Source of the DNA: Thermogemmatispora onikobensis
Lineage (GTDB): Bacteria > Chloroflexota > Ktedonobacteria > Ktedonobacterales > Ktedonobacteraceae
Length of the DNA stretch: 64,000 nucleotides
Assembly (NCBI RefSeq): GCF_001748285.1
Contig: NZ_BDGT01000003.1
Coordinates: 62,001 to 126,000 of the forward strand
Direction: 5' to 3'
Each line of letters begins with the position of its first letter. The stretch's first letter is position 1. The notes under the pieces are model-generated. The model was not told where the DNA came from. It was given only the letters and a program-made list of their open reading frames with translations, and did not search any database. Position numbers and translations under genes: made by a program. Shown here one piece after another: positions 50,468 to 64,000 of this stretch.

Positions 50468-53400
50468 TTACAATGTCGCGACCAGCGGCAGCTGAGCCAG
50501 GTCGCCGCGCGCCTGGTACCTTTCCAGCATGCCCTGCGCCTCTTGTAAAAGCACAACCGCTTTCGCGCGCAGAGCAGCCGATCCCGCTTGCAGCGCCGCC
50601 TGAGCCTGGAGGACCTGGATGCGGGCTTGCTCCAGCGGCAGATCCAGCTCTTCAGCCAGCCTGGCAGCCTCGCGGAAATGGCGCTCGGCCTCCTCCCAGG
50701 TCCCACACATTGCCCGATACCAGGCCCATAAAGTCGCAGCTCGCATTGCCAGCAACCGGCGCTGCTGCTGCTGAGCCGTGGCCAGGGCTGTCTCTAGATA
50801 AGGAGCAGCCTCGGCAGGTTGAGCACGTAGCAGCCAGATCTCAGCCAGCCACAGCTGAAGACGTGTGCGCAGATGGTGATAACCATAGTCATCGATGAGC
50901 GCCAGGGCTTCCTCCAGCAGAGCCGTCGCCTCCTCCAGACGCCCTTGACTGCGCGCACAGAGGGCCAGGCCCCCACGATAGCCTGCCTGCCGTTCAAGAT
51001 TGCCCAGCTCTTCAGCCAGCGCCAGCCCTTGACTCAGGACCTCGGTCGCGGCGCGCCACTCCCCCACATAGAGATGCAGCTCCCCCTGCGTACTCGAGAG
51101 ATGAAGCAAGGCTCCCAACAGCTCGTAGGTCTCAGCGATTCTTCGCCCCTCAGCTAAAGCGGCCTTGGCCGCCTCCAGCTCCCCTAGCAGGAGATGATGA
51201 TAGGCAGCATTATTGTAGGAGAGCGCCAGAAAATAATAGTTATGAGTCGCCCGAGCAGCTTCAGCCGCCTCTCCATAGAAACGCAGCGCCTGACGCAGCT
51301 GGCCATATTGAGCCGCAATATTGCCTAACTCAAAGAGAGTCGCGCAGAGGTCGCCCAGATTGCCACACTGACGGAGCGCATACGCCGCCTCTTGGAGATG
51401 AGCCTCGGCGACCACCAGATCGCTGCCCTCCATCGCCAGCGCCGCACCCAGCAGGCGCTGACCAGCGGCAAATAGCGTCTGCCGCTCGTCTTCCCGGGGC
51501 GAATCAGGCACTGCCAACCCGGCTTCAGCGCATGCAATGGCTTCGCGATAATCGTTCATCATCAGGGCCAACTCCCCCAGCTCGAAATAGGCGCTCTTGC
51601 AGGCCGCCCGATCATTCAGCTGGCGGGCCAGCGTCAAGTAGCGCCGGTACCAGTCAGCCGCCTGCTGGAGCTGTCCCAAGGCGCGGTAGACCTGCCCCAG
51701 CGCCATCGTCAGGCGCAGCTCCTCCTCCAGGGCTGCTGCAGGTGCTACCAGGTCGTAGAGCTGTTGTAAGAAGAGAGCCACCTCCGTGCTGACGTTTTCG
51801 CGCGCCAGCTCATCCAGAATCTGCAATCCATAGCGCCGGGCTCGCTCGCTGTCGCCCCCCATCACCGCATGCAGAGCAATTTGCCGCCGCGGAACATCCT
51901 GCTGCAGCGCCGGACATCGCTCCAGCATGGCCGCCAACTCGCGGTGAATCTGCTGCACCCGCACCTGGCTCAGGCGATGCATGACCGCCTCACGCAAGAG
52001 AGCATGCGAGAGACCATAGCAGCCTGAAGCCGTCTCCCTAAGCAAACCACGCCAGAGTAGCTGATCCACGATAGACATGAGAGGCAAATTATGCATTTCT
52101 GGCATCTCTTGCAAAAGAGCCAGCGGCAGGGGTTGATTGGCAATTGCCAGAATTTCCAGCAGCAGGCGGACCTCAGTATCGAGATCGATCAGGCGCCAGA
52201 GCACTAAATCATAGGCGGTCTCTGGGAGCGCATGCATAACTCGCCAGCGCAGCCAGCGCCGCACGTCTAGCCGCCTTTCCCCAGCACTTTCGCTCAGGAC
52301 CCCATCGGCCTGCAGCTGACGCAGCAGCTCCAGCAAGATAAACGGGCTGCCCCCCGAGCGCTCGTATAACCATGCCGGGAAGGTGGAGGCCCCCGGCAAA
52401 GTCACAATGCGCAGAGCTTCCACCAGGGCGGTCACCACCTCCGGAGTCAAAGGCGCCAGCGAGAGCACCTGGACATACCCATGCCGTCGTCCGAGTGTCA
52501 GCAATCGTTGCAAAGCTGGAACCAGCTCAACCGAAGCGCTCGTTCCAATGAGTAGGATAGGAAGCTGGTGAGCACGCAGGGCCAGAAAGCCAAAAAGCTG
52601 GAGCGTCGAGCTATTGGCCCAATGGAGATCGTCGATCGCCAGAAGCAAGGGAGCCGTGCGCGCCAGGGTCCGTAGCGTCTGCCAGAGCGACCACATCAAG
52701 CGACCCTGCTCCTCCGGCAGAGCGCTCCCAAGGGAGGGAGAGGCCGACACCAGCGTCTCAGCGAGAGGATCTAAGCCGAGTCCTTGCAAAGCTTCCCAAA
52801 AAGGGCCGTAAGCCAGCAATTCATCAAACGGCGAACAGGTCCCTCGCAGCATGATCCAATCCACTGAGAGCGATTCGAGCCGCGCCATCAGCTCATCCAA
52901 TAGCCGGGTCTTGCCGCTGCCATCCTCGCCCTGAATCAAGACCGTTGCTCCCTGACCCGTTCTCGCCACCTGCGCAGCCAGCTGCAGTAGATGGTCAAGC
53001 GGCTCCTCTCGCCCAACAAAAGGCAGCATCTGCCCGCCAGGCCCATTGGAGCCAGAGCATCTTCCCCCGGCTCGACCACCGTCACAGGCAGCAGCAGCCC
53101 GGCGGTTTGTCAAAGCCTCTCTCATGCGCTCCTGCAGATCAGCCGGTGGCGAAAGACCGAGTTCCTGCTGCAAAAATCTCTCGTATTGCGTATATTGCAG
53201 CCAGGCCCGCCCGAGAGAGCCACAGCGCAGAGACAACTCAATCAGCCGGCGTTGATCAGCCTCGGAGAAGGGATCTTCGCGAACCAGACGCTGCAGGTAT
53301 TCAATGGCCTCCTCCCAGCGCCCTGCTTGCTCAGCATAAGCTGCCAGGCGGCTCAACGCCGTCAGATAGGCCCGGCTCAGAGCCGCCTCTTCCATCTGCA

Positions 53401-53842
53401 ACCACTCATCGAAGAGCGGGGCTCCATTGAGCGTAAAGCCCTGCAAGAGTCGCCCGCGGTACAGCTGTACTGCCTCCACCAGAGCCTGTCTGCTGCCCTC
53501 CAGCAAGAGCTGCCGGAAACGCCGCACGTCACAGACCAGCAGTGGCTCGGCCAGAGAGACATAAGGGCCATCAACCACCAGCGCCCCGGCCATGCCATAC
53601 GATTGGAGGGTCCGACGAATGACATACAGATTGGAGCGCAGCGAATGGCGGGCATTATCTTCGGGCACCTCGCTCCATAACAAGGCTGCCAGGTGCTCGC
53701 GCGGCTGAGGGCCTTCAGAGGCCGCCAGATAGTAGAGGAGCGCCTGCGCCTTCTGATGATGCAACACCAACGGTAGACCGGCGATACGTACCTCGGGAAC
53801 ACCCAAAAGACGGAACACCAGCCGCTCGGAAGACATGCTCAT
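50468..53842 (-). CDS. BTAD (SARP-type) regulator with AAA ATPase and TPR domains
   Basis: A 1,124-residue large transcription regulator, related in layout to AfsR and the MalT/STAND class. Residues about 1-100 form a winged-helix-like DNA-binding domain (FRLLGVPEVRIAGLPLVL, ALLYYLAASEG). The BTAD dimerisation domain follows (about 100-245, FRQLLLEG through RFLQQELGLSPP). A P-loop ATPase begins with F-V-G-R-E-E, with Walker A G-E-D-G-S-G-K-T-R (305-313) and Walker B LLLAIDDLHWANS near 400. Residues from about 690 to the end are tetratricopeptide-like helices. Such proteins sense nucleotides and small ligands and control nearby genes. The targets here are not evident. No LuxR domain is seen at the end. 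Confidence 0.9.
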   Translation of the reverse strand: MSMSSERLVFRLLGVPEVRIAGLPLVLHHQKAQALLYYLAASEGPQPREHLAALLWSEVPEDNARHSLRSNLYVIRRTLQSYGMAGALVVDGPYVSLAEPLLVCDVRRFRQLLLEGSRQALVEAVQLYRGRLLQGFTLNGAPLFDEWLQMEEAALSRAYLTALSRLAAYAEQAGRWEEAIEYLQRLVREDPFSEADQRRLIELSLRCGSLGRAWLQYTQYERFLQQELGLSPPADLQERMREALTNRRAAAACDGGRAGGRCSGSNGPGGQMLPFVGREEPLDHLLQLAAQVARTGQGATVLIQGEDGSGKTRLLDELMARLESLSVDWIMLRGTCSPFDELLAYGPFWEALQGLGLDPLAETLVSASPSLGSALPEEQGRLMWSLWQTLRTLARTAPLLLAIDDLHWANSSTLQLFGFLALRAHQLPILLIGTSASVELVPALQRLLTLGRRHGYVQVLSLAPLTPEVVTALVEALRIVTLPGASTFPAWLYERSGGSPFILLELLRQLQADGVLSESAGERRLDVRRWLRWRVMHALPETAYDLVLWRLIDLDTEVRLLLEILAIANQPLPLALLQEMPEMHNLPLMSIVDQLLWRGLLRETASGCYGLSHALLREAVMHRLSQVRVQQIHRELAAMLERCPALQQDVPRRQIALHAVMGGDSERARRYGLQILDELARENVSTEVALFLQQLYDLVAPAAALEEELRLTMALGQVYRALGQLQQAADWYRRYLTLARQLNDRAACKSAYFELGELALMMNDYREAIACAEAGLAVPDSPREDERQTLFAAGQRLLGAALAMEGSDLVVAEAHLQEAAYALRQCGNLGDLCATLFELGNIAAQYGQLRQALRFYGEAAEAARATHNYYFLALSYNNAAYHHLLLGELEAAKAALAEGRRIAETYELLGALLHLSSTQGELHLYVGEWRAATEVLSQGLALAEELGNLERQAGYRGGLALCARSQGRLEEATALLEEALALIDDYGYHHLRTRLQLWLAEIWLLRAQPAEAAPYLETALATAQQQQRRLLAMRAATLWAWYRAMCGTWEEAERHFREAARLAEELDLPLEQARIQVLQAQAALQAGSAALRAKAVVLLQEAQGMLERYQARGDLAQLPLVATL

Positions 53843-54346
53843 AGCTGTGCACTGCTGCTTTTGGCTTGCAATGATCCCCTCGCAGCGTTGAGGAAAGTGA
53901 TTATTTTTTTACTCTATCCCCATCCCCTCGCATTTGCAAGAGCATTCTTACGGTCCCTGCCTTCCTCCCTCCAGGTCCCGCAAGTACTTCTTCGTCTCCA
54001 GCTCAGCCGCTGTTCATCCTCACCAGCCCTGCTCCCTGTCACCTCCGAAACAACGGAGTCTTTACACAACTGGAAGAGACAACACCATATCTTTTTCCAA
54101 ATCAACATCTCATCAGCACAACAGCAAACTACACTTGGAGTGAAAATGCAGGAACTCGCTACCGCGTTCGTCGTTTACCGAGAAGCTTCGTAACAGGATG
54201 CCTCTGGCATGTATAGCCCAGCCGCCAGGCATAATCAGCATAGCCACACAAGTCGGGAGGAGGTCACGCAGCAGAGACAAGAGGAGCACATAGCCAGGCA
54301 ATCGGCTAGCGACACTCCATTATGCGAAAAAGAGAGCGTTGCCAGC
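53843..54346. other. Divergent intergenic region BTAD regulator / MshEN-like gene
   Basis: About 500 bases holding both start regions. An AT-rich run (TATTTTTTTACTC) at about 53900-53912 is near the regulator promoter. No operator-like palindrome was found. Confidence 0.4.
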
Positions 54347-54727
54347 ATGGGGACACTGAAAGAGATGGCCTATCTCGTTCGCCAGGGACCTCTCCCACGC
54401 CTCTCTTCGCTGAGGTATATCCCTCTGCGCTACCGCGGCTGGCTGCCCCTGCCAGTGGCCAGACGCTACCAGTGTCTGGTGATCGGCCTCGCTCAGGGCG
54501 TGGTCACCGTGGCCCTGGCTCGCCCGGGCGATGCCGCTTTTTATGCCCTGCTCGAGGAGATCACCTCTTGTACCGTCTTCCCAGTGCTTGTTCCTCCTTC
54601 CTCACTGCGCCTGGCGATCAGGCGCCTTGAGCGCGATCAACGACGCCCGAGCCTTTCGCTACATCCCGCTTATTTTCTCCATCCTCGTCAGTTCAGCACT
54701 TTGTCGCTCCTTCCACTTCACTTTTAA
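54347..54727 (+). CDS. Stand-alone MshEN (GspE N-terminal)-like domain protein
   Basis: A 126-residue protein that looks like one MshEN domain, the cyclic-di-GMP-binding N-terminal part of GspE/PilB-type ATPases. Residues LPVARRYQCLVIGLAQGVVTVALARPGD follow the family pattern (L-P, A-R-R-Y, strand, V-A-x-x-x-P-x-D), then TSCTVFPVLVPPSSLRLAIRRLER. The ATPase domain is absent. I prefer ATG 54347 (GAGAG upstream); the frame is open from 54209. A polar tail follows the domain. It is about 200 bases before the sugar aminotransferase gene, at the head of the glycan region, where c-di-GMP control would fit. The family call rests on motif pattern only. Confidence 0.5.
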   Translation: MGTLKEMAYLVRQGPLPRLSSLRYIPLRYRGWLPLPVARRYQCLVIGLAQGVVTVALARPGDAAFYALLEEITSCTVFPVLVPPSSLRLAIRRLERDQRRPSLSLHPAYFLHPRQFSTLSLLPLHF

Positions 54728-54926
54728 CGCCAGGCGATAGCCGGTGCGGCCTCTCGGCATCACCGCATTTCAACCCGCATAAGCATCAGGCAAAAACCGG
54801 TGGGTGCTATTGTGCTTCTTGAAAAGAGCTGGGCAGCCACCTCTCCTGGCGGCGGCAAGCACCCCACTTTTCAGCGCGCTCGCTATGGTAGCTGCCACCA
54901 CGGCTCTTGCAGGAGGCTGGCTTTCT

Positions 54927-56051
54927 ATGCGCATACCACTCGTGGACCTGCAGGCACAGTATCAGACAATCAAAGAGGAGGTCCGGGCTGCTCTGGATGA
55001 GGTCCTGGCCGACATGGAGCTATTCATTGGGCCGCGTACTCGCGCCTTCGAGGAGGCTTTTGCCGCTTACTGCGGCTGCCGCTATGGCATCGGCGTCTCA
55101 TCGGGCACTGATGCCTTGACGCTGGCTCTGCGCGCCTGTGGCATTGGCCCCGGTGATGAGGTGATCACTGTGGCCAATACGTTTATCGCTACCATCGAGG
55201 CGATCGCACAGGTCGGGGCCAGGCCGGTCTTTGTGGACATCGACCCCCAAACGTACACGCTCGATCCCGCGCAGGTCAGTGCTGCGTTGACGCCTCGCAC
55301 GCGCGCGCTGCTGCCCGTGCACCTCTATGGTCATCCCGCTGAAATGGAGCCGCTGCTGGCTATCGCGCGCCGCGCCGGGCTGCGAGTCATCGAGGATGCT
55401 TCACAGGCCCACGGGGCAACTTACCAGGGTCGCCGCGTCGGCAGCCTGGGCGATATTGGCTGTTTCAGTCTCTACTACAGTAAAAACCTGGGCGCCTATG
55501 GCGAGGCCGGTATCTGTGTCACCAACGACGCCGCACTGGCGGAGCGCCTGCGCATGCTGCGCGATCACGGCTCGCGCGTTCGCTATCACCATGAACTGGT
55601 GGGCTGGAATGCCCGCCTCGATGAGCTGCAGGCCGCCGTGCTGCTCACCAAGCTGCGCTATCTGGAACGTTGGAACGCAGCTCGCCAGTCTCACGCTCGC
55701 TTCTACAGCGAGCAGCTGCGCATGGCAGCGGCAGTCTTGCCGGTGACGAGGGCTTGGGCTACCCATGTCTATTGCTACTATGTGATCCAGGTTGAACAGC
55801 GCGATCAATTCCGTCACCTGCTGGAGCAGGCTGGCATCAGTACCGGCATCCACTATCCGATTCCTTTGCATCTGCAGCCGGCCTGCGCCTATCTCGGCTA
55901 TCAACGTGGGGCCCTCCCCCAAACCGAGGCCTGCGCTGCTCGTATTGTCTCGCTGCCAATGTATCCCGAGCTCACGGAACAGCAGCTGACTTATGTGGTG
56001 GAGACAATCAACAAAAGCCTGACGCTGTGCACGCCTGTATCTGACCGCTAG
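54927..56051 (+). CDS. Sugar aminotransferase, DegT/DnrJ/EryC1 family
   Basis: A 374-residue PLP-dependent transferase that puts an amino group on a keto sugar nucleotide. IPLVDLQAQYQTIKEEVRAALDEV is the standard beginning. The PLP site includes E-D-A-S-Q-A-H-G and the Lys in F-S-L-Y-Y-S-K-N-L-G-A-Y-G (about residue 187). The end, SLPMYPELTEQQL, is also typical. The start at 54927 follows AGGAGG; the longer frame from 54804 lacks such a site. The Gfo/Idh/MocA gene 300 bases downstream recalls the WbpB/WbpE or WlbA pairs that make amino sugars for surface glycans, but the exact sugar is unknown. Confidence 0.92.
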   Translation: MRIPLVDLQAQYQTIKEEVRAALDEVLADMELFIGPRTRAFEEAFAAYCGCRYGIGVSSGTDALTLALRACGIGPGDEVITVANTFIATIEAIAQVGARPVFVDIDPQTYTLDPAQVSAALTPRTRALLPVHLYGHPAEMEPLLAIARRAGLRVIEDASQAHGATYQGRRVGSLGDIGCFSLYYSKNLGAYGEAGICVTNDAALAERLRMLRDHGSRVRYHHELVGWNARLDELQAAVLLTKLRYLERWNAARQSHARFYSEQLRMAAAVLPVTRAWATHVYCYYVIQVEQRDQFRHLLEQAGISTGIHYPIPLHLQPACAYLGYQRGALPQTEACAARIVSLPMYPELTEQQLTYVVETINKSLTLCTPVSDR

Positions 56052-56351: not shown

Positions 56352-57371
56352 ATGGAAACACTGCGCTTCGCCATCATCGGCTGGGGCTATTGGGGTCCCA
56401 GGCTGGCACGCAACCTTGAATCGCTTCCGTACGCAAGCGTTACCTTGATTGCCGATAGCAATCCCGCGTGCCAGTTCTCGCCCGCTCTGCGCCATCACCC
56501 TCGGGCCCGTTTTACCACCTCCGTTGAGGAGATCTATCGTTCCGACGTGGACGCCGTCGTCGTTGCTACTCCGGTGAGCACCCACTACGCTTTTGCCCGC
56601 GCCGCCCTCCAACACGACAAACATGTGCTGGTCGAGAAGCCGCTGACCGCGAGCGTGGCCGAGGCCGAGGAGCTGGTCAACCTGGCCCGGGAGCGACAGC
56701 GCATCTTGATGGTCGGCCATACCTTTGAGTACAGCCCAGCAGTCAACGAGCTGCGCAAGCTGATCCGCAATAATGACCTGGGTAGGATCTATTGCTTCGA
56801 GGCGATCCGTGTGAATCTGGGCCTCTTCCGCCAGGATACAAACGTCATCTGGGATCTCGCTCCTCACGATATCTCTATTTTGCTCTACCTGCTCAGTGAG
56901 AAGCCGGCGGAGGTGCGTGTGCAAGCCCATGCCCATATCCAACCGCGTATTCCAGATATTGCTCACCTCGATCTGACTTTCGCCAGCGGCATGACGGCCC
57001 ATATTCATGTGAGCTGGCTCCATCCCTGCAAGATCCGCCGGGTCACTGTCATCGGCGACCAGCGCATGGCAGTCTATGACGATACAAACCCCGCTGAGAT
57101 GCTGAAGATCTATAACAAAGGGGCCGATGTACACGCCGATCCAATCGTTTCCTACCGCAATGGCGAAATTACCATCCCTCACATCGACTGGGTCGAGCCG
57201 CTGCGCCTGGAGTGCGAGGACTTCGCCGAGGCAATCCGCACAGGGAAGCAACCGCGAGCGAATGGCCAGGTCGGACTAGAGGTCGTTCGCATTCTGGCAG
57301 CAGCTCAGCAGGAACTGGAACGCGAACACCAAACGCACCAGCCCCTGACAGCGGTCAGCCCGGCCAGCTAG
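56352..57371 (+). CDS. Gfo/Idh/MocA-family sugar (nucleotide) oxidoreductase
   Basis: A 339-residue NAD(P)-dependent oxidoreductase. The Rossmann loop is FAIIGWGYWGPRLARNL (G-W-G-Y-W-G, about residues 10-15). E-K-P-L-T near residue 95 holds the catalytic Lys, and V-A-T-P-V-S-T-H-Y precedes it. The C-terminal half is the usual open-faced sheet with DLAPHDISILLYLL. Members of the family act on sugars, inositols or UDP-sugars. With the aminotransferase just upstream, oxidation at C3 of a UDP-sugar before amination is the likeliest role. The start is ATG 56352; AGAGGTAG lies upstream. It is followed after 78 bases by the deacetylase-like gene. Confidence 0.9.
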   Translation: METLRFAIIGWGYWGPRLARNLESLPYASVTLIADSNPACQFSPALRHHPRARFTTSVEEIYRSDVDAVVVATPVSTHYAFARAALQHDKHVLVEKPLTASVAEAEELVNLARERQRILMVGHTFEYSPAVNELRKLIRNNDLGRIYCFEAIRVNLGLFRQDTNVIWDLAPHDISILLYLLSEKPAEVRVQAHAHIQPRIPDIAHLDLTFASGMTAHIHVSWLHPCKIRRVTVIGDQRMAVYDDTNPAEMLKIYNKGADVHADPIVSYRNGEITIPHIDWVEPLRLECEDFAEAIRTGKQPRANGQVGLEVVRILAAAQQELEREHQTHQPLTAVSPAS

Positions 57372-57449: not shown

Positions 57450-58811
57450 ATGAATCTGGTCGCCTTTTCTCTGCGCACGAAGGGCCCGCATAATTTTTTG
57501 CGCCGCCTATGGACGGTCTTCGCTCGCTTTGGCCTGACAGAACAGCGCACCGCCCACGCCTTGCAAGCCCTGGTGGCAACCCTGCGTCTGTACGGGGCGT
57601 ATCCTACCTTCTTTATCCCTGCTGTGGTGCTGCGTCGCCACGTTCCCTTGCTGCGTCGGATCGCCGCCAGTGGCGCCGAAATCGGGATTCACGGCTACGT
57701 TCACAACGATTATCGCACCTTGACCCGCCAGGAGCAGGAGCGTCAGACCCAGCTGGCCATCACCATCTTCAGCCATAGCCAGATCTCCTTTGCCGGCTTT
57801 CGCAACCCTTACCTTGGCTGGACAGAAGAGGCACTGGAGATCTTCGCCTCGCTGGGCTTCACCTATGAAAGCAACGAGGCGGTCATTCACGATGTCATCG
57901 ACCTGAAAACCCTCTCGCCCCTGCTGCGCAGTGGCTACGAGAAATCTCTGCACTTGTTTCAGGCCGTGCCCCCGAGCATCTATGACCTGCGCCCACACTG
58001 CGAGGGTGCACTGGTGCGCCTGCCCACCAGTATCCCCGATGATGAAATGCTCTTCGACCGCCTGCGCATCACTGATCCACAACGCATCGCCGCTCTCTGG
58101 TCCGAGATCATGGCACGCATCTACGCCCTGGGTGGTCTGTACGTACTCAATCTTCACCCAGAGCGTGGTTTGCTCTGCCAGGCCGCGCTCCGTGGCCTGC
58201 TCGACTACGCCACCAGCCAGCCGGAACCAGTCTGGATCGCCCGCCTGGAGGAGATTGCTCGCTGGTGGCGCGAGCGCTGCCACTTCCGCTTTGACTTCAA
58301 TGCCGCCGGCCCCCAACGCTGGCAGGTCCGCCTGCTCAGTTCTCCACGTGCCCATGTCAAGACCCGGCAGCTCACAGTGCTCGCTCGCTCCAGCGCAGAC
58401 ACCAGCGAGCAACGGACCCCAGGAGGACTACAACAACAAGAGTGGCTTGTTGAGGCCGAACGCTGCCCCGCCATCGCCCTCTCGCCAGTGACTCCACCAG
58501 CGGTCATGGCCTTTCTCCAGGAGCAAGGCTACGCTGTGACTCGCGCCAGCCCCGAGGAGGGCACCAACTACAGCCTTTTTCTGGATTTGCCCGCCGGCCT
58601 GGGTGCATCCCCCAGGGAGCAGCGGGAGCAGCGCCGCCAGCTCGTCGCCCAGATCGAAGGGCTGTCGGCCCCTTTGCTCTCTTTTGCTCCCTGGCCCGCC
58701 CACTATCGCGCCGCCCTGGCCATCAGCAGCGATATCGATTCGGTTACAATCCAGGACTTCTTCCTCCGCATCGTCGAGGTCGCCCGCGCCAGCCGTCTCT
58801 CGCCAAATTAG
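57450..58811 (+). CDS. Polysaccharide-deacetylase-like protein with atypical motifs
   Basis: A 453-residue protein. Residues about 30-230 follow the NodB/polysaccharide-deacetylase pattern: AYPTFFIPAVVL, I-G-I-H-G-Y-V-H with the two metal His (H-x3-H), and F-R-N-P-Y in place of R-x-P-Y. The first motif (T-F-D-D) is absent from the N-terminus, where VAFSLRTKG stands instead. Residues about 250-400 are a separate region of unclear fold. The C-terminus reads YRAALAISSDIDSVTIQDFF, which itself resembles the first motif (D-x-D) of a second deacetylase domain, but the chain ends 15-20 residues later. The gene may be truncated, or the residue order rearranged. It sits in the glycan gene group. An 11-bp terminator follows. 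Confidence 0.6.
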   Translation: MNLVAFSLRTKGPHNFLRRLWTVFARFGLTEQRTAHALQALVATLRLYGAYPTFFIPAVVLRRHVPLLRRIAASGAEIGIHGYVHNDYRTLTRQEQERQTQLAITIFSHSQISFAGFRNPYLGWTEEALEIFASLGFTYESNEAVIHDVIDLKTLSPLLRSGYEKSLHLFQAVPPSIYDLRPHCEGALVRLPTSIPDDEMLFDRLRITDPQRIAALWSEIMARIYALGGLYVLNLHPERGLLCQAALRGLLDYATSQPEPVWIARLEEIARWWRERCHFRFDFNAAGPQRWQVRLLSSPRAHVKTRQLTVLARSSADTSEQRTPGGLQQQEWLVEAERCPAIALSPVTPPAVMAFLQEQGYAVTRASPEEGTNYSLFLDLPAGLGASPREQREQRRQLVAQIEGLSAPLLSFAPWPAHYRAALAISSDIDSVTIQDFFLRIVEVARASRLSPN

Positions 58812-59170: not shown

Positions 59171-59977
59171 ATGCCGTCTCAAGATAGACAGCAGTTGCCT
59201 GCTTACAGGAGGACTCAGCGCGTAGTCATCGCTCATGAAGCTGATATCTTCTGCCGCGGGCTACACAGCCTGCTGGCAACCAGCGAGGGGTTCGAAGTGC
59301 TGGCGGAGGTGAATTCTTGCGCCGCTCTGCTAGCAACAGTAGCGACGACCGCCGTGGATACGGTTCTCATCGATTGCACGTTGGCCGATGGCGATTGCAT
59401 CGAACTGACACGCCGCCTGAATGAAATGCCTTCCCCCCCTCATGTGGTTTTGCTCGCCTCCAACATCAACGAAGAATTGCTCCTGCGCGCCTTGCTCAAC
59501 GGTGCCAGTGGCTACCTGACCAAGGATACCCCGGGCCACCAGGTGCTCGCCTGCCTGGAAGGACTGCGCAAGGGAGAGCTGGCCCTGGCCCCCCAGGTAG
59601 CTAGCGCGGCTATCCGCCTGCTGGTCTGGGAGTGCTACCGCCTGGCCGCTACCCTGTCTACGACAACCACCTCCACAGGCCCAGCCCTCACCTCAGAGCA
59701 GACTCAGGCCGACCAGCCTCATGGCCGCTTCGAGCAAGCTTCCACAGAATTCCACAGGCCAGCAGCCCGGCCTCATCTCACCGAGCAGGAGCAGAAGATT
59801 CTCCGCCTCCTGCGACTCGGCCTGAGCAATAAGCAGATCGCTGCCCGCCTCTCGATCTCTCCTTACACAGTAGGGAAGCATGTCCAGCATATTCTGCGGA
59901 AGCTTGGAGCCAGCAATCGCACTCAGGCTGCCTCTCATACTTCATTTGAGGGACCTCAAGTAAGGGATGAGCAGTAA
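59171..59977 (+). CDS. Response regulator, NarL/LuxR family
   Basis: A 268-residue two-component regulator. A receiver domain (about 16-135) has VVIAHEADIFCRGLHSLL, an acceptor Asp68 in V-L-I-D-C-T-L and the Lys in G-Y-L-T-K-D-T-P. A polar linker of about 70 residues rich in Thr, Ser and Gln is longer than usual. The C-terminal LuxR helix-turn-helix (about 205-262) reads LTEQEQKILRLLRLGLSNKQIAARLSISPYTVGKHVQHILRKLG. AAAAGG lies eight bases before ATG 59171. No kinase is adjacent. Position between glycan genes suggests it controls surface polysaccharide synthesis. Confidence 0.9.
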   Translation: MPSQDRQQLPAYRRTQRVVIAHEADIFCRGLHSLLATSEGFEVLAEVNSCAALLATVATTAVDTVLIDCTLADGDCIELTRRLNEMPSPPHVVLLASNINEELLLRALLNGASGYLTKDTPGHQVLACLEGLRKGELALAPQVASAAIRLLVWECYRLAATLSTTTTSTGPALTSEQTQADQPHGRFEQASTEFHRPAARPHLTEQEQKILRLLRLGLSNKQIAARLSISPYTVGKHVQHILRKLGASNRTQAASHTSFEGPQVRDEQ

Positions 59978-60137: not shown

Positions 60138-60881
60138 TTGATGAAATTGCTTATTGTTGATGAAGACCGTGATCTTGTTGAAATGTTGACAGGCTGGTTA
60201 AAGACACTGGGGCATGAGGTGCGACGCGCGTACTCCGGTGAGCAGGCGCGTCGTGAGTGGGAAGAGCACAAACCAGACCTGGTGATTCTGGATACGGCAC
60301 TCAAAGACACCGATGCTCTCGCCATGTGCCGCGAGATGCGTACGCGGCACGATGCCCTTGTGCTAGTCATCTCTCAAGAGCGGGACGTACACGATGAGGT
60401 TCAGTGTTTGGAGGGAGGTGCGGATGATTATCTGCGCAAGCCTTTCTTCCCGGCCCAGCTGCTGGCGCGCATCCGAGCTGTCAGTCGGCGAGGGCGTTCA
60501 ACGCTACTCTTACGTCCTCCTGCTGTCATCACCGTTGGCCCTCTCTCCATCGACTCTCTCCACAACGAAGCCCGCATCTTTGGCAAAACGGTGCATCTCA
60601 CACCCACCGAGAGTAAGCTACTGCATCTGCTAGGAGTCAATGCCAATAACGTCTGTACAGCGGGCCAGATTGTGGCCCATATCTGGGGTTTTGGGAACGA
60701 CGGCGATGCCAGCCTGATCAAGGCCCATATCCACCATCTCCGGCAGAAAATCGAACCGGACCCGGCTAATCCGCGCTACATACTCACCGTACCGGGGGTG
60801 GGCTATACGCTGGTACGCCACCCTGAGAAGGCCGAGGCCACGGCTAGCACATCAGAGCATGCCCAGCGAGCCTCTGGCTGA
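60138..60881 (+). CDS. Response regulator, OmpR family
   Basis: A 247-residue two-component regulator. The receiver (1-120) has the acidic triplet V-D-E-D at 6-9, acceptor Asp51 (L-V-I-L-D-T-A) and Lys in Y-L-R-K-P-F. The winged-helix output domain (about 135-230) has LTPTESKLLHLLG and GVGYTLVRH as in OmpR/PhoB. No histidine kinase lies nearby. Its own promoter after the NarL-type gene suggests separate control. The start ATG 60138 has a weak ribosome site (GGGGTATTTTG). Confidence 0.92.
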   Translation: MMKLLIVDEDRDLVEMLTGWLKTLGHEVRRAYSGEQARREWEEHKPDLVILDTALKDTDALAMCREMRTRHDALVLVISQERDVHDEVQCLEGGADDYLRKPFFPAQLLARIRAVSRRGRSTLLLRPPAVITVGPLSIDSLHNEARIFGKTVHLTPTESKLLHLLGVNANNVCTAGQIVAHIWGFGNDGDASLIKAHIHHLRQKIEPDPANPRYILTVPGVGYTLVRHPEKAEATASTSEHAQRASG

Positions 60882-61236: not shown

Positions 61237-62289
61237 CTATCCCAGATAACGATAGAGCAGCCCTCCGAGGGGACCGCTCACCTGGAGAGGCAGTAATCGC
61301 CAGCAGCTTGTCACGAGACGATAGCCACGGCTCTCCTCGGAGGTGCTGACCGGACCGGCCCGGTGCGGATAATAATAATAGGGCAGCGGCACTTTCTCCG
61401 CTCCCCAGCGGCGCTTAAACTCCATCAAACCCTGATTCGCACAGGCCGTGCGCCCAAGATCCAAGACCCTGAAGCCCTCTTTGCATGCCTGCTCAATCGC
61501 CTGCCACATCAACAGGTTATTGGGTGCCAGCTGCAGGTAGCGTTCGTGTGAAGCTCCATAGGCATAGCGCAGCGTTCCACTCGCCGCCAGGAAGATCATC
61601 CCAGCGATCGGCTGCCCCTCATACTCCGCCAACCATAGCTGTAACCGTCCGCTGGGCGCGAAAGTCTCCCACAGCTCCAGAAAGAAGCGTCGTGGCTGAG
61701 CGGGCAACCCGTGTTTCTTACAGCGTGTGCGCAGATGGAGCTGATAATAGCTCAGCATCTCGTCGCGGCGCTCTGCCAGCCGTACCTGGACTCCTAACTG
61801 GGCCGCTTTGCGCACTTGCCGCTGTACTGGCTTCCGCAACTGGGTCCACATCATTTGAGCATCCTGCGCGAGCGGGAGTAGCCAGCGCACGTAGAGATCG
61901 CTGGCCACAAAGCGGCTATCCGCCTGCAGCAACTCATTGGGGCCACAGCGCAGCTCCAGGCAGTCTGCTTTCTGCTCCGCGGCCAGCGCCAGAGCCTGAT
62001 CGAGCAGGATCTGAGCATGCTCAGCACTGTCAGCCAGCAGCGGGCAGTAATCCGAAAAAGGGAAGGCCACTAACCGCCGACTCCCTGGACGGTTCTGCAC
62101 GAGACAGAGTGGCAAAAAGCCGCAGAGTTGGCCAGCCTCATTGCGCAGTCCCAGCGGCAGCAGTTTATAACCATAGAGACGGCTGATCAACTCTAACCAC
62201 TCTGGCATGAGATAGAAGGTCTCGCTGGCTTCCTGCGCCAGGGCTGGCGACCACGTCTGCGAAAGAGAGAGCGTTGCCTGCGTCATCAT
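61237..62289 (-). CDS. FemAB-like / GNAT-fold acyltransferase
   Basis: A 350-residue protein of the FemAB-like, two-GNAT-lobe type. Motifs seen are GFLPLCLVQNRPGSRRLVAFPFSDYCPLL in the first lobe, and in the second lobe GMIFLAASGTLRYAYGASHERYLQLAPNNLLMWQAIEQACKEGFRVLDLGRT, close to the pattern of peptidoglycan-bridge and exopolysaccharide-linked transferases (Y-x-x-G-A-S, N-x-L, D-x-G-R). The family transfers amino acids or acyl groups to cell-wall or polysaccharide acceptors. Starts GTG 62292, ATG 62289 and ATG 62286 are in a row after AGGAG; I take ATG 62289. It is followed by the GT4 gene upstream on the same strand. Confidence 0.8.
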   Translation of the reverse strand: MMTQATLSLSQTWSPALAQEASETFYLMPEWLELISRLYGYKLLPLGLRNEAGQLCGFLPLCLVQNRPGSRRLVAFPFSDYCPLLADSAEHAQILLDQALALAAEQKADCLELRCGPNELLQADSRFVASDLYVRWLLPLAQDAQMMWTQLRKPVQRQVRKAAQLGVQVRLAERRDEMLSYYQLHLRTRCKKHGLPAQPRRFFLELWETFAPSGRLQLWLAEYEGQPIAGMIFLAASGTLRYAYGASHERYLQLAPNNLLMWQAIEQACKEGFRVLDLGRTACANQGLMEFKRRWGAEKVPLPYYYYPHRAGPVSTSEESRGYRLVTSCWRLLPLQVSGPLGGLLYRYLG

Positions 62290-62445
62290 CACTGCTCCTA
62301 GCCCGTGCTAGCCTGGTAGCTATCTTTACCACCGCCCCTACTGCCACCAGTCAGTAAGAGGGCGAGCGTCCTGGCGCCAAGCATCCAGCCAGCAGCAGCA
62401 AGCCTGCGCGATGTATGAAGGTCATCGCCAGGCCTTGCTATCTGG

Positions 62446-63678
62446 CTAGAGACAGGAGCCAGGGGAGAGCGGCGTCCTTCCCAGAAGCTCCTCCTCGGAG
62501 AGGAGGGCCGCCAGACGCTCTTGGCAGCTCTCCCACGAATAGGCTTGCTCCACCAAGCACCTACCAGCCTCAGCCAGGGCCCGCCGGCGCCTGGTATCCT
62601 CGAAGAGCAAGACGACAGCGCTTACGAAGTCTTCAGGGGTGTCAGCGAGCAACAAATGGCGACCAGAGGCCACAGCCAGGCCCTCAGCTCCTAACGTCGT
62701 TGAGACGACTGCCTTACGCATTGCCAGCGCTTCTAGAATTTTGAGGCGCGTCCCGCTCCCGATGAGCAAGGGAACCACCACAACGCTGGCCCTGGCCAGA
62801 TAAGGGCGTACATCGGGCACTGTACCAGTGACCGTTACCCCGGGCAGTCTGGCCAGGCGCTGTACCGAGCGAGGCGGATTGCGCCCTACAATCCACCACT
62901 CAGCCCCTGGCACTCGCTCGCGGATGAGCGGCCAACACTGGCGCGCAAAGGAGAGCACAGCCTGCTCATTGGGATAATAGTCCAGCGAGCCGGTGAAGAC
63001 GATCCGTCGCCCTTCCTCCTCCTCACCCATACGGGCAGGGGCAAAGAACGAGAGATCCACGCCATTGGGGACAACTCCAACACGAGCCTGTGGGAGCAGC
63101 TCCTGTAAGAGCTGGCGCTCGCGCTCGCTCGCCACTAAGACAGTAGCCGCCCGCTTACAGCACGCCAGCTCGCGCGGTTTGACCAGGCGATACTCACGCC
63201 TGTTATACCACCTGCGCAACCAGCCCTTCTCAGCGAGATAGGTGCGATAGAGCAGCTCGTACTCAAGGTTGTGCTGCAGAATAAGCAGAGGCAGAGAGAC
63301 AGGAAGATGCAGACCAGCAGCAGTAAGGGCGCCATCGACATAGATCGCCTGATAGTTATCCTTGGCCAGAGCGCGATCAAGCGCGGCCTGCAAACCAGGC
63401 GGGCAACGCTCAGCGATGGCGCTTGACTCTCCCCGCACCACGTTAAGCGCCTGCCTCCAGCGTCTCCAGCGTGAGGCCGGGGAGGGGACCAGGTCGACGC
63501 TCCACAACCGCTCTAATAGCGGCCCCAGGCTTGCCGCCTCTGGCGACTCCTCTCCACGGCTCAGCGCGATCAGCGAAACAGAATACTTGCTCGCCAGAGC
63601 CTCTAAGACATAGAAACTGCGCGCTCCCCCCCCCCAGGTTGGAGCGGGCATGTAAGGGATCACCGCCAATAGCTTCAT
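62446..63678 (-). CDS. Glycosyltransferase, GT4 family
   Basis: A 410-residue GT-B-fold glycosyltransferase. The N-terminal acceptor domain begins LLAVIPYMPAPTWGGGARSFYVLEALA. The C-terminal donor domain has VPNGVDLSFFAP, IVFTGSLDYYPNEQAVLSF, V-P-L-L-I-G-S-G-T-R-L-K-I-L-E-A-L-A-M-R-K, where the E-x7-E-like nucleotide-sugar motif is expected, and V-S-T-T-L-G-A-E-G-L. It moves a sugar to a polysaccharide or lipid carrier in the cytoplasm. ATG 63678 is preceded by GAGAGGTG; TTG 63681 is an in-frame alternative. It lies upstream of the FemAB-like gene, and the two are probably in one transcript. Confidence 0.9.
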   Translation of the reverse strand: MKLLAVIPYMPAPTWGGGARSFYVLEALASKYSVSLIALSRGEESPEAASLGPLLERLWSVDLVPSPASRWRRWRQALNVVRGESSAIAERCPPGLQAALDRALAKDNYQAIYVDGALTAAGLHLPVSLPLLILQHNLEYELLYRTYLAEKGWLRRWYNRREYRLVKPRELACCKRAATVLVASERERQLLQELLPQARVGVVPNGVDLSFFAPARMGEEEEGRRIVFTGSLDYYPNEQAVLSFARQCWPLIRERVPGAEWWIVGRNPPRSVQRLARLPGVTVTGTVPDVRPYLARASVVVVPLLIGSGTRLKILEALAMRKAVVSTTLGAEGLAVASGRHLLLADTPEDFVSAVVLLFEDTRRRRALAEAGRCLVEQAYSWESCQERLAALLSEEELLGRTPLSPGSCL

Positions 63679-64000
63679 CAAGGCACCTCTCTCGCTCGGC
63701 GTCGTCTACCAGCCCCATGGACAGAGACACTAGCTCCTCCGAGCAGATACTTCCTCCGGCCCGGTCGCCATTGCAGCCAAACGTCCGGAGAGCAGGCGCT
63801 CTGCATAGGACTCTCCGCAACCCCTTCATTGTTGTTGCTGCTTCACTAAAGGACCTGCCCAGTCAGTAAGCATAGCGCTTGCTGATCGCGGAACGGTTGA
63901 CCTTCAGGTCAAGAATGTGTTCCTGTAGAGGCCAGCCAGTGCATATTCGCAATCGGGAGAGGGCCAGTGGCGACCTCTACCAATTCGCATAACCCTCCCC
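63679..64000. other. Right-edge intergenic region
   Basis: About 320 bases before the window ends. TTGACC-TTCA-GGTCAA (63897-63912) is a symmetric 16-base site. No gene with a ribosome site and no partial gene entering from the edge was recognised. Confidence 0.45.

Follow-up and report, generated by a model that had tools for sequence, protein, structure and literature searches.

In Vibrio cholerae MshE, c-di-GMP is held by two 24-residue RLGxx...Q motifs carried by the four-helix MshEN_N subdomain (residues 1-64), and the structural account of the protein names D108 as the sole residue that the following MshEN_C subdomain (65-145) gives to the ligand (PMC5013675). An MshEN domain also occurs in Escherichia coli NfrB, described as a c-di-GMP-activated glycosyltransferase in which L490, G491 and L537 were tested by mutation as c-di-GMP residues (PMC8669469). 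A GSPII domain can be complete and yet be without c-di-GMP binding, as reported for GSPII-A of PilF (PMC12002112). The C-terminal subdomain, or ND1, has been described as a docking surface, with PilZ on one of its faces in X. citri PilB and EpsL/GspL docking on another in the type II ATPases (PMC8389850).

We analysed a 64,000-nucleotide stretch of the Thermogemmatispora onikobensis genome (hereafter the window; the assembly has 5.56 Mb in 112 contigs), in which an open reading frame on the forward strand starts with an ATG at 54347 and stops at 54727, giving a 126-aa product. The start peptide (MGTLKEMA) is conserved in all six genus members, similar peptides stand in G008 (MGTMKEIA) and G015 (MGEMKNMA), and the counterpart in T. 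carboxidivorans PM5 is 94% identical. Over the 126 codons, dN/dS was 0.08-0.19 (15/15 pairs from six genus genomes), showing purifying selection, and the product is a real, conserved small protein. A short protein that lacks most of a presumed parent might be suspected of being a decaying remnant without function; given this constraint in every pair and a recurring setting in 17 of the 29 family genomes (see below), such decay is extremely improbable. The frame is already open from 54209, and likewise open in 6/6 genus members, which mildly favours a longer protein. This was set aside on dN/dS: because the values for the in-frame stretch 54209..54346 (+) are much higher (0.26-0.84 in 10/10 pairs from five genomes; G004, whose stretch is apparently unrelated, was excluded), and with the start at 54347 conserved, this stretch is probably a leader rather than coding and 54347 the likely start. 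A scan of 53840 to 54960 for promoter-like and terminator-like sites came up empty, and a repeat scan gave nothing useful. The leader region contains a palindrome (ATGCC..GGCAT, 54198-54210) that may be an operator; it is kept in 4/5 genus members compared by eye, the G004 leader being unrelated.

The domain search gave a clear assignment. Pfam MshEN (PF05157) matched the protein at 43.3 bits (E 3.7e-11, curated cut-off 23.1), with residues 16-100 aligned to positions 5-89 of the 90-position profile, and was the only domain over cut-off in the 126 aa; neither a T2SSE ATPase domain of the GspE/PilB kind nor an N-terminal GGDEF-like domain is present, and an NCBIfam search returned no match at E<=1. 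The earlier note had read 54347-54727 as a protein of little more than an MshEN-like domain and had proposed a T2SSE_N/MshEN profile match as a check; both the exact coordinates and the match were borne out. The best AF2 model had a mean pLDDT of 80.9 and a pTM of 0.73, with blocks of residues 1-100 at 82-94 and a low-confidence tail from 106 under 50 (the remaining four models ranged from 76.8 to 60.2), and its fold core spans about residues 13-98. It aligned with MshE (5htl) over 61-145 (Z 10.0, rmsd 2.2, 82 residues; Foldseek E 3.6e-5), and further with X. citri PilB 66-157, XpsE 62-149 and PilF GSPII-B 221-301 (Z 8.5-10.0 including MshE), more weakly with EpsE 15-81 (Z 5.7, under Z 8); Foldseek / VIA-align rows under Z 5, ribosomal proteins among them, were treated as background. 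At the sequence level, a profile built from 15 relatives matched PilB 92-154 at 3.8e-4, and the alignment with MshE 56-133 was weak (E 0.49). The predicted model has the alpha/beta fold of MshE 65-145. From PF05157, the model, the fold match and dN/dS, 54347..54727 (+) encodes a stand-alone protein: an MshEN_C (ND1) subdomain on its own, which in type IV pilus and type II secretion ATPases is the alpha/beta docking half of the N-terminal domain. It carries neither an ATPase nor the four-helix half that binds c-di-GMP.

This identity bears directly on the proposal of the earlier note that the lone domain acts as a c-di-GMP sensor. In a control with E. coli NfrB, the PF05157 match was confined to residues 542-628 and so starts past the mutated residues L490, G491 and L537, from which it follows that PF05157 is the MshEN_C half. 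Because the Pfam model covers this C-terminal subdomain only, a profile match is uninformative on c-di-GMP; the name MshEN is misleading as a sign of binding, and annotators should not take the label alone to imply it. In the protein itself, the model aligns with MshE only from residue 61 on, and neither MshEN_N nor its two motifs are present. A pattern search with a relaxed version of the 24-residue motif, which picks up one of the two binding motifs of NfrB and is thus not fully sensitive, found it in 0/24 open frames from the family, a set that contains the window's frame, and in none of the six frames of the window; the possibility of an out-of-frame MshEN_N half upstream was tried by pattern in three frames of 53700-54727 and rejected. 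The one ligand residue of the MshE C-half, D108, pairs in the weak alignment with R59, a position that is Arg in 6/6 genus rows and Asp in 7/9 rows from other genera. Profile searches of the host genome gave no PilZ, no EAL and, over cut-off, no T2SSE ATPase; of the two GGDEF matches that do pass cut-off, one reads GGDDF (after a receiver domain) and the other is degenerate. In 14 of the 17 gene-bearing genomes GGDEF is represented by one weak match (about 1e-10 to 1e-13), and strong matches occur in G012, G015 and G017. These searches covered GGDEF, EAL and PilZ, and c-di-GMP signalling may yet occur in these bacteria.

These observations indicate that the protein is probably not a c-di-GMP sensor. 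A lone receptor switching a glycan enzyme, as if NfrB had been divided into two proteins, would fit the Pfam name, the glycan neighbours and the precedent described for NfrB (PMC8669469); with the binding subdomain and motifs missing, the tested NfrB residues outside PF05157, no EAL or PilZ in the host and one weak GGDEF match in most carriers, it is very improbable. The earlier note had tied refutation to two findings, of which the first, a lack of c-di-GMP-binding residues, was observed, and the second, no match to the profile, was not. A pilus or secretion setting was rejected on a T2SSE survey in which at most the 46 best candidates were scored per genome and gene-bearing assemblies were 76-98% complete: a T2SSE match at E<=1e-5 passed cut-off in at least 4/29 genomes of the family, and of the 17 gene carriers G015 alone had one, with none at E<=1e-5 in the other 16 among the candidates scored. 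Another small ligand might be bound through the MshEN_C fold at a site marked by a conserved Gln-Cys pair, as C43 and E95 are invariant in 15/15 rows and Q42 and R93 nearly so. This we consider decidedly unlikely, since the C-half of MshE is described as giving only D108 to its ligand (PMC5013675) and the cysteine, also present in most long relatives, may be structural.

We then turn to the setting of the gene. Its divergent upstream neighbour (50468..53842, -) is a SARP-like BTAD/AAA/TPR regulator (PF03704, PF13191, TPR). Downstream on the + strand lie a DegT/DnrJ/EryC1 aminotransferase (54804..56051; PF01041, E 1.9e-122), whose real start, judged by eye, may be an ATG at about 54927, and a Gfo/Idh/MocA sugar-nucleotide dehydrogenase (56352..57371; PF01408), for which the best NCBIfam relative, UDP-GlcNAc 3-dehydrogenase NF040723, stays under cut-off (E 1.1e-47, 163 bits vs 450). 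With these two enzymes following it, the gene does stand at the head of a glycan gene group, as had been proposed. Next come a polysaccharide deacetylase-domain protein (57450..58811, +; PF01522, E 3.4e-12), a LuxR/NarL-type response regulator (59171..59977, +; PF00072 and PF00196) and an OmpR-type response regulator (60138..60881, +; PF00072, 6.6e-23, and PF00486, 1.7e-22) of the D regulator clade described below, these two regulator genes lying side by side within the glycan cluster. On the minus strand follow a GNAT/FemAB-like acyltransferase of the cluster (61237..62292; PF13480, 9e-26) and a glycosyltransferase of group 1 / family 4 type (62446..63681; PF13692, 1.3e-26). No kinase was found among the eight window neighbours tested with profiles. 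The polysaccharide cluster runs past the window end (L143, G000:C3:124000-143000), where chain-length/kinase-like, polymerase-like, glycosyltransferase-like and two chitinase-like genes were labelled by eye.

Four MshEN_C clades, A-D, were delimited by eye and come out separately in the MshEN_C tree; the short gene is clade D, and it occurs in 17/29 family genomes and in 0/18 other genomes of the class search. In a sample of the phylum, with the best 14 candidates scored per genome, at least 25/301 genomes matched at 1e-6, 24 of them belonging to this class and the one left having a 473-aa frame; no further short gene was among the matches listed. In loci outside the genus, the genes usually run from the regulator through MshEN_C and a sugar-phosphate transferase on the opposite strand to DegT and Gfo/Idh. 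The OmpR-type regulator gene is upstream on the same strand in 11/11 of these loci, a count that includes G020, where a contig end leaves a 101-aa fragment, and G017, where a small opposite-strand frame call lies in between, and the gap from its end to the MshEN_C frame is about 120-430 bp, without overlap. The transferase gene adjoins in all 11, DegT is present in 10/11 and Gfo/Idh in 9/11 (G020 lacks both; the G016 contig ends). Within the genus, DegT and Gfo/Idh follow the MshEN_C gene in 6/6, and the regulator is 5.7-5.8 kb downstream in 5/6 (the sixth contig ends), four genes lying between in a different order. No sugar-phosphate transferase was found in the genus neighbourhood stretches examined; in the window's genome, one with 58% identity is encoded about 25 kb downstream, within the large polysaccharide cluster. 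G015 has a LuxR-type regulator ahead of the OmpR-type one, as in the window, and the genus therefore looks rearranged rather than different. Over all loci, DegT is present in 16/17 (as two overlapping frames in G008) and Gfo/Idh in 15/17, so that the search proposed earlier, for the same gene beside glycan genes in relatives, found it recurring across genera. The regulator itself consists of REC and Trans_reg_C domains, and its putative phospho-acceptor Asp52 is present in 31/31 rows.

PopA and PelD are enzymatically degenerate GGDEF proteins that keep the RxxD inhibitory-site motif. Long-form relatives of the 126-aa protein, two of which are encoded in the host genome, have comparable features ahead of MshEN_C. 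None of 41 long open frames, all with 150 aa or more preceding MshEN_C, has a GGDEF-type signature; RxxD was found by pattern in 40 of them (a raw count, with no chance control), the remaining one, L140, reading RATD by eye, and the Arg and Asp of the motif are invariant in both long-form alignments. For clade B, 12/12 N-terminal stretches given (of 14 loci) matched PF00990 at E<=1, the best over cut-off (1e-6, 29.1 bits), and a profile of the clade found GGDEF proteins among solved structures (best 0.0037). For clade A, 5/13 stretches given (of 15 loci) matched weakly (best 0.0048) with no solved structure at E<=1, and because of this the clade is called GGDEF-like on its resemblance to clade B. 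Clade A genes (L107-L142 loci; L050 in the window's own genome) mostly follow a protein of cluster K3 (14 members), to which no function is assigned, and are often near epimerase-like and myo-inositol-1-phosphate synthase-like genes (labelled by eye). Clade C contains a second set of short MshEN_C forms (L130, L134, L135), beside sigma-70-like and glycosyltransferase-like genes (again by eye). L110 (G044) is perhaps a further one, but may instead be a broken long form, because a second frame of the same family immediately precedes it.

One long clade has a parallel linkage. A clade B gene follows a paralogous regulator gene at 14/14 loci, which is the case for 0/15 clade A and 0/7 clade C genes (0/22 together), and clade B regulators are 50-54% identical to the nearest D regulator tested. 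In the tree of regulators, from which the G020 fragment was omitted, a single branch (100/100) divides the 15 rows of D from the 14 of B; in the MshEN_C tree, built on few columns and with 22/57 inner branches open, the fork between D and the other rows has 93/84. With D and B cleanly split in the first and D splitting off in the second, regulator and MshEN_C appear to have been duplicated together. In G026, from another family, a long form comes after a regulator and is followed by a sugar-phosphate transferase, an arrangement from which loss of a GGDEF-like part by the short gene may be supposed. We leave this loss as an inference because in the trees the G026 long form does not join clade D and the regulator of this locus groups with the B regulators (81/81), and because a 391-aa frame stands between the two genes.

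From this linkage we propose, as a tentative reading that falls somewhat short of an even chance, that the window protein is a stripped-down MshEN_C adaptor that partners the OmpR-type regulator in exopolysaccharide control. The likely ancestor would be a two-part protein, a signature-less GGDEF-like domain followed by MshEN_C, paired with an OmpR-type regulator; the pair would have been duplicated at an exopolysaccharide locus, where the GGDEF-like part was lost. The remaining adaptor would bind the regulator encoded at 60138-60881, or hold it to another protein, and thereby adjust expression of the exopolysaccharide cluster, an effect suggested by gene position. The parallel linkage of D (11/11 outside the genus) and B (14/14) with paralogous regulators argues for this reading; against it, the two frames are 120-430 bp apart and within the genus are separated by four genes, and common residence at a glycan locus could account for the linkage with no protein contact. 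By analogy with ND1 on EpsL/GspL, the protein might instead be an adaptor to the exopolysaccharide machinery, for example to the initiating sugar-phosphate transferase, whose gene adjoins at every locus outside the genus and in G026 comes after the long form; in type II secretion, ND1 is described as docking on a protein of the membrane platform (PMC8389850). We hold this to be rather unlikely, as clade B keeps its regulator in a different setting and the transferase of the window's genome is so distant. The short form might also compete with long MshEN_C paralogues for a partner surface and dampen their signal, since short and long forms coexist within the same genomes and short forms are found in clade C too. 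This is quite unlikely: in G000 and G003, the genus genomes examined, the long forms are one of clade A and one of clade C, with clade B missing, and an epimerase family is the only cluster that the called neighbours of these two clades have in common with the window locus.

Extending the regulator-adaptor reading to the family, these Ktedonobacteria may, with rather less confidence, carry a signalling pair of an OmpR-type regulator and an MshEN_C partner dedicated to it and taken over from pilus-ATPase regulation, in a putative sensor form (GGDEF-like, RxxD) and a sensor-less form at the exopolysaccharide locus. In our searches of the literature on MshEN, Thermogemmatispora, Ktedonobacter, c-di-GMP and degenerate GGDEF, we did not find such a pair, nor a paper joining Thermogemmatispora with c-di-GMP or MshEN with Ktedonobacter. 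The interest of the finding lies in the co-inherited regulator pair: it names a testable partner, the OmpR-type regulator, and suggests that pilus-ATPase N-domains have had their docking half put to new use, as a free adaptor, in bacteria where such ATPases were mostly not found.

Compared with known systems, the window protein shares with MshE, PilB, XpsE, EpsE and PilF the ND1 fold of about 80 residues, but it is free-standing, with no MshEN_N and no ATPase, in a host without a T2SSE match over cut-off. Like NfrB, it ties an MshEN-type domain to exopolysaccharide synthesis; in NfrB, however, c-di-GMP motifs lie upstream of the PF05157 match and the domain is fused to its own glycosyltransferase. 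Its long-form relatives resemble PopA and PelD in lacking the GGDEF signature and keeping RxxD, and differ in being fused to MshEN_C; the window protein has no GGDEF-like part at all. A further parallel is with PilB-PilZ and EpsE-EpsL, in which ND1 is a protein-docking surface; there the partners are PilZ and EpsL/GspL, whereas here the linked gene encodes an OmpR-type regulator and the docking is putative.
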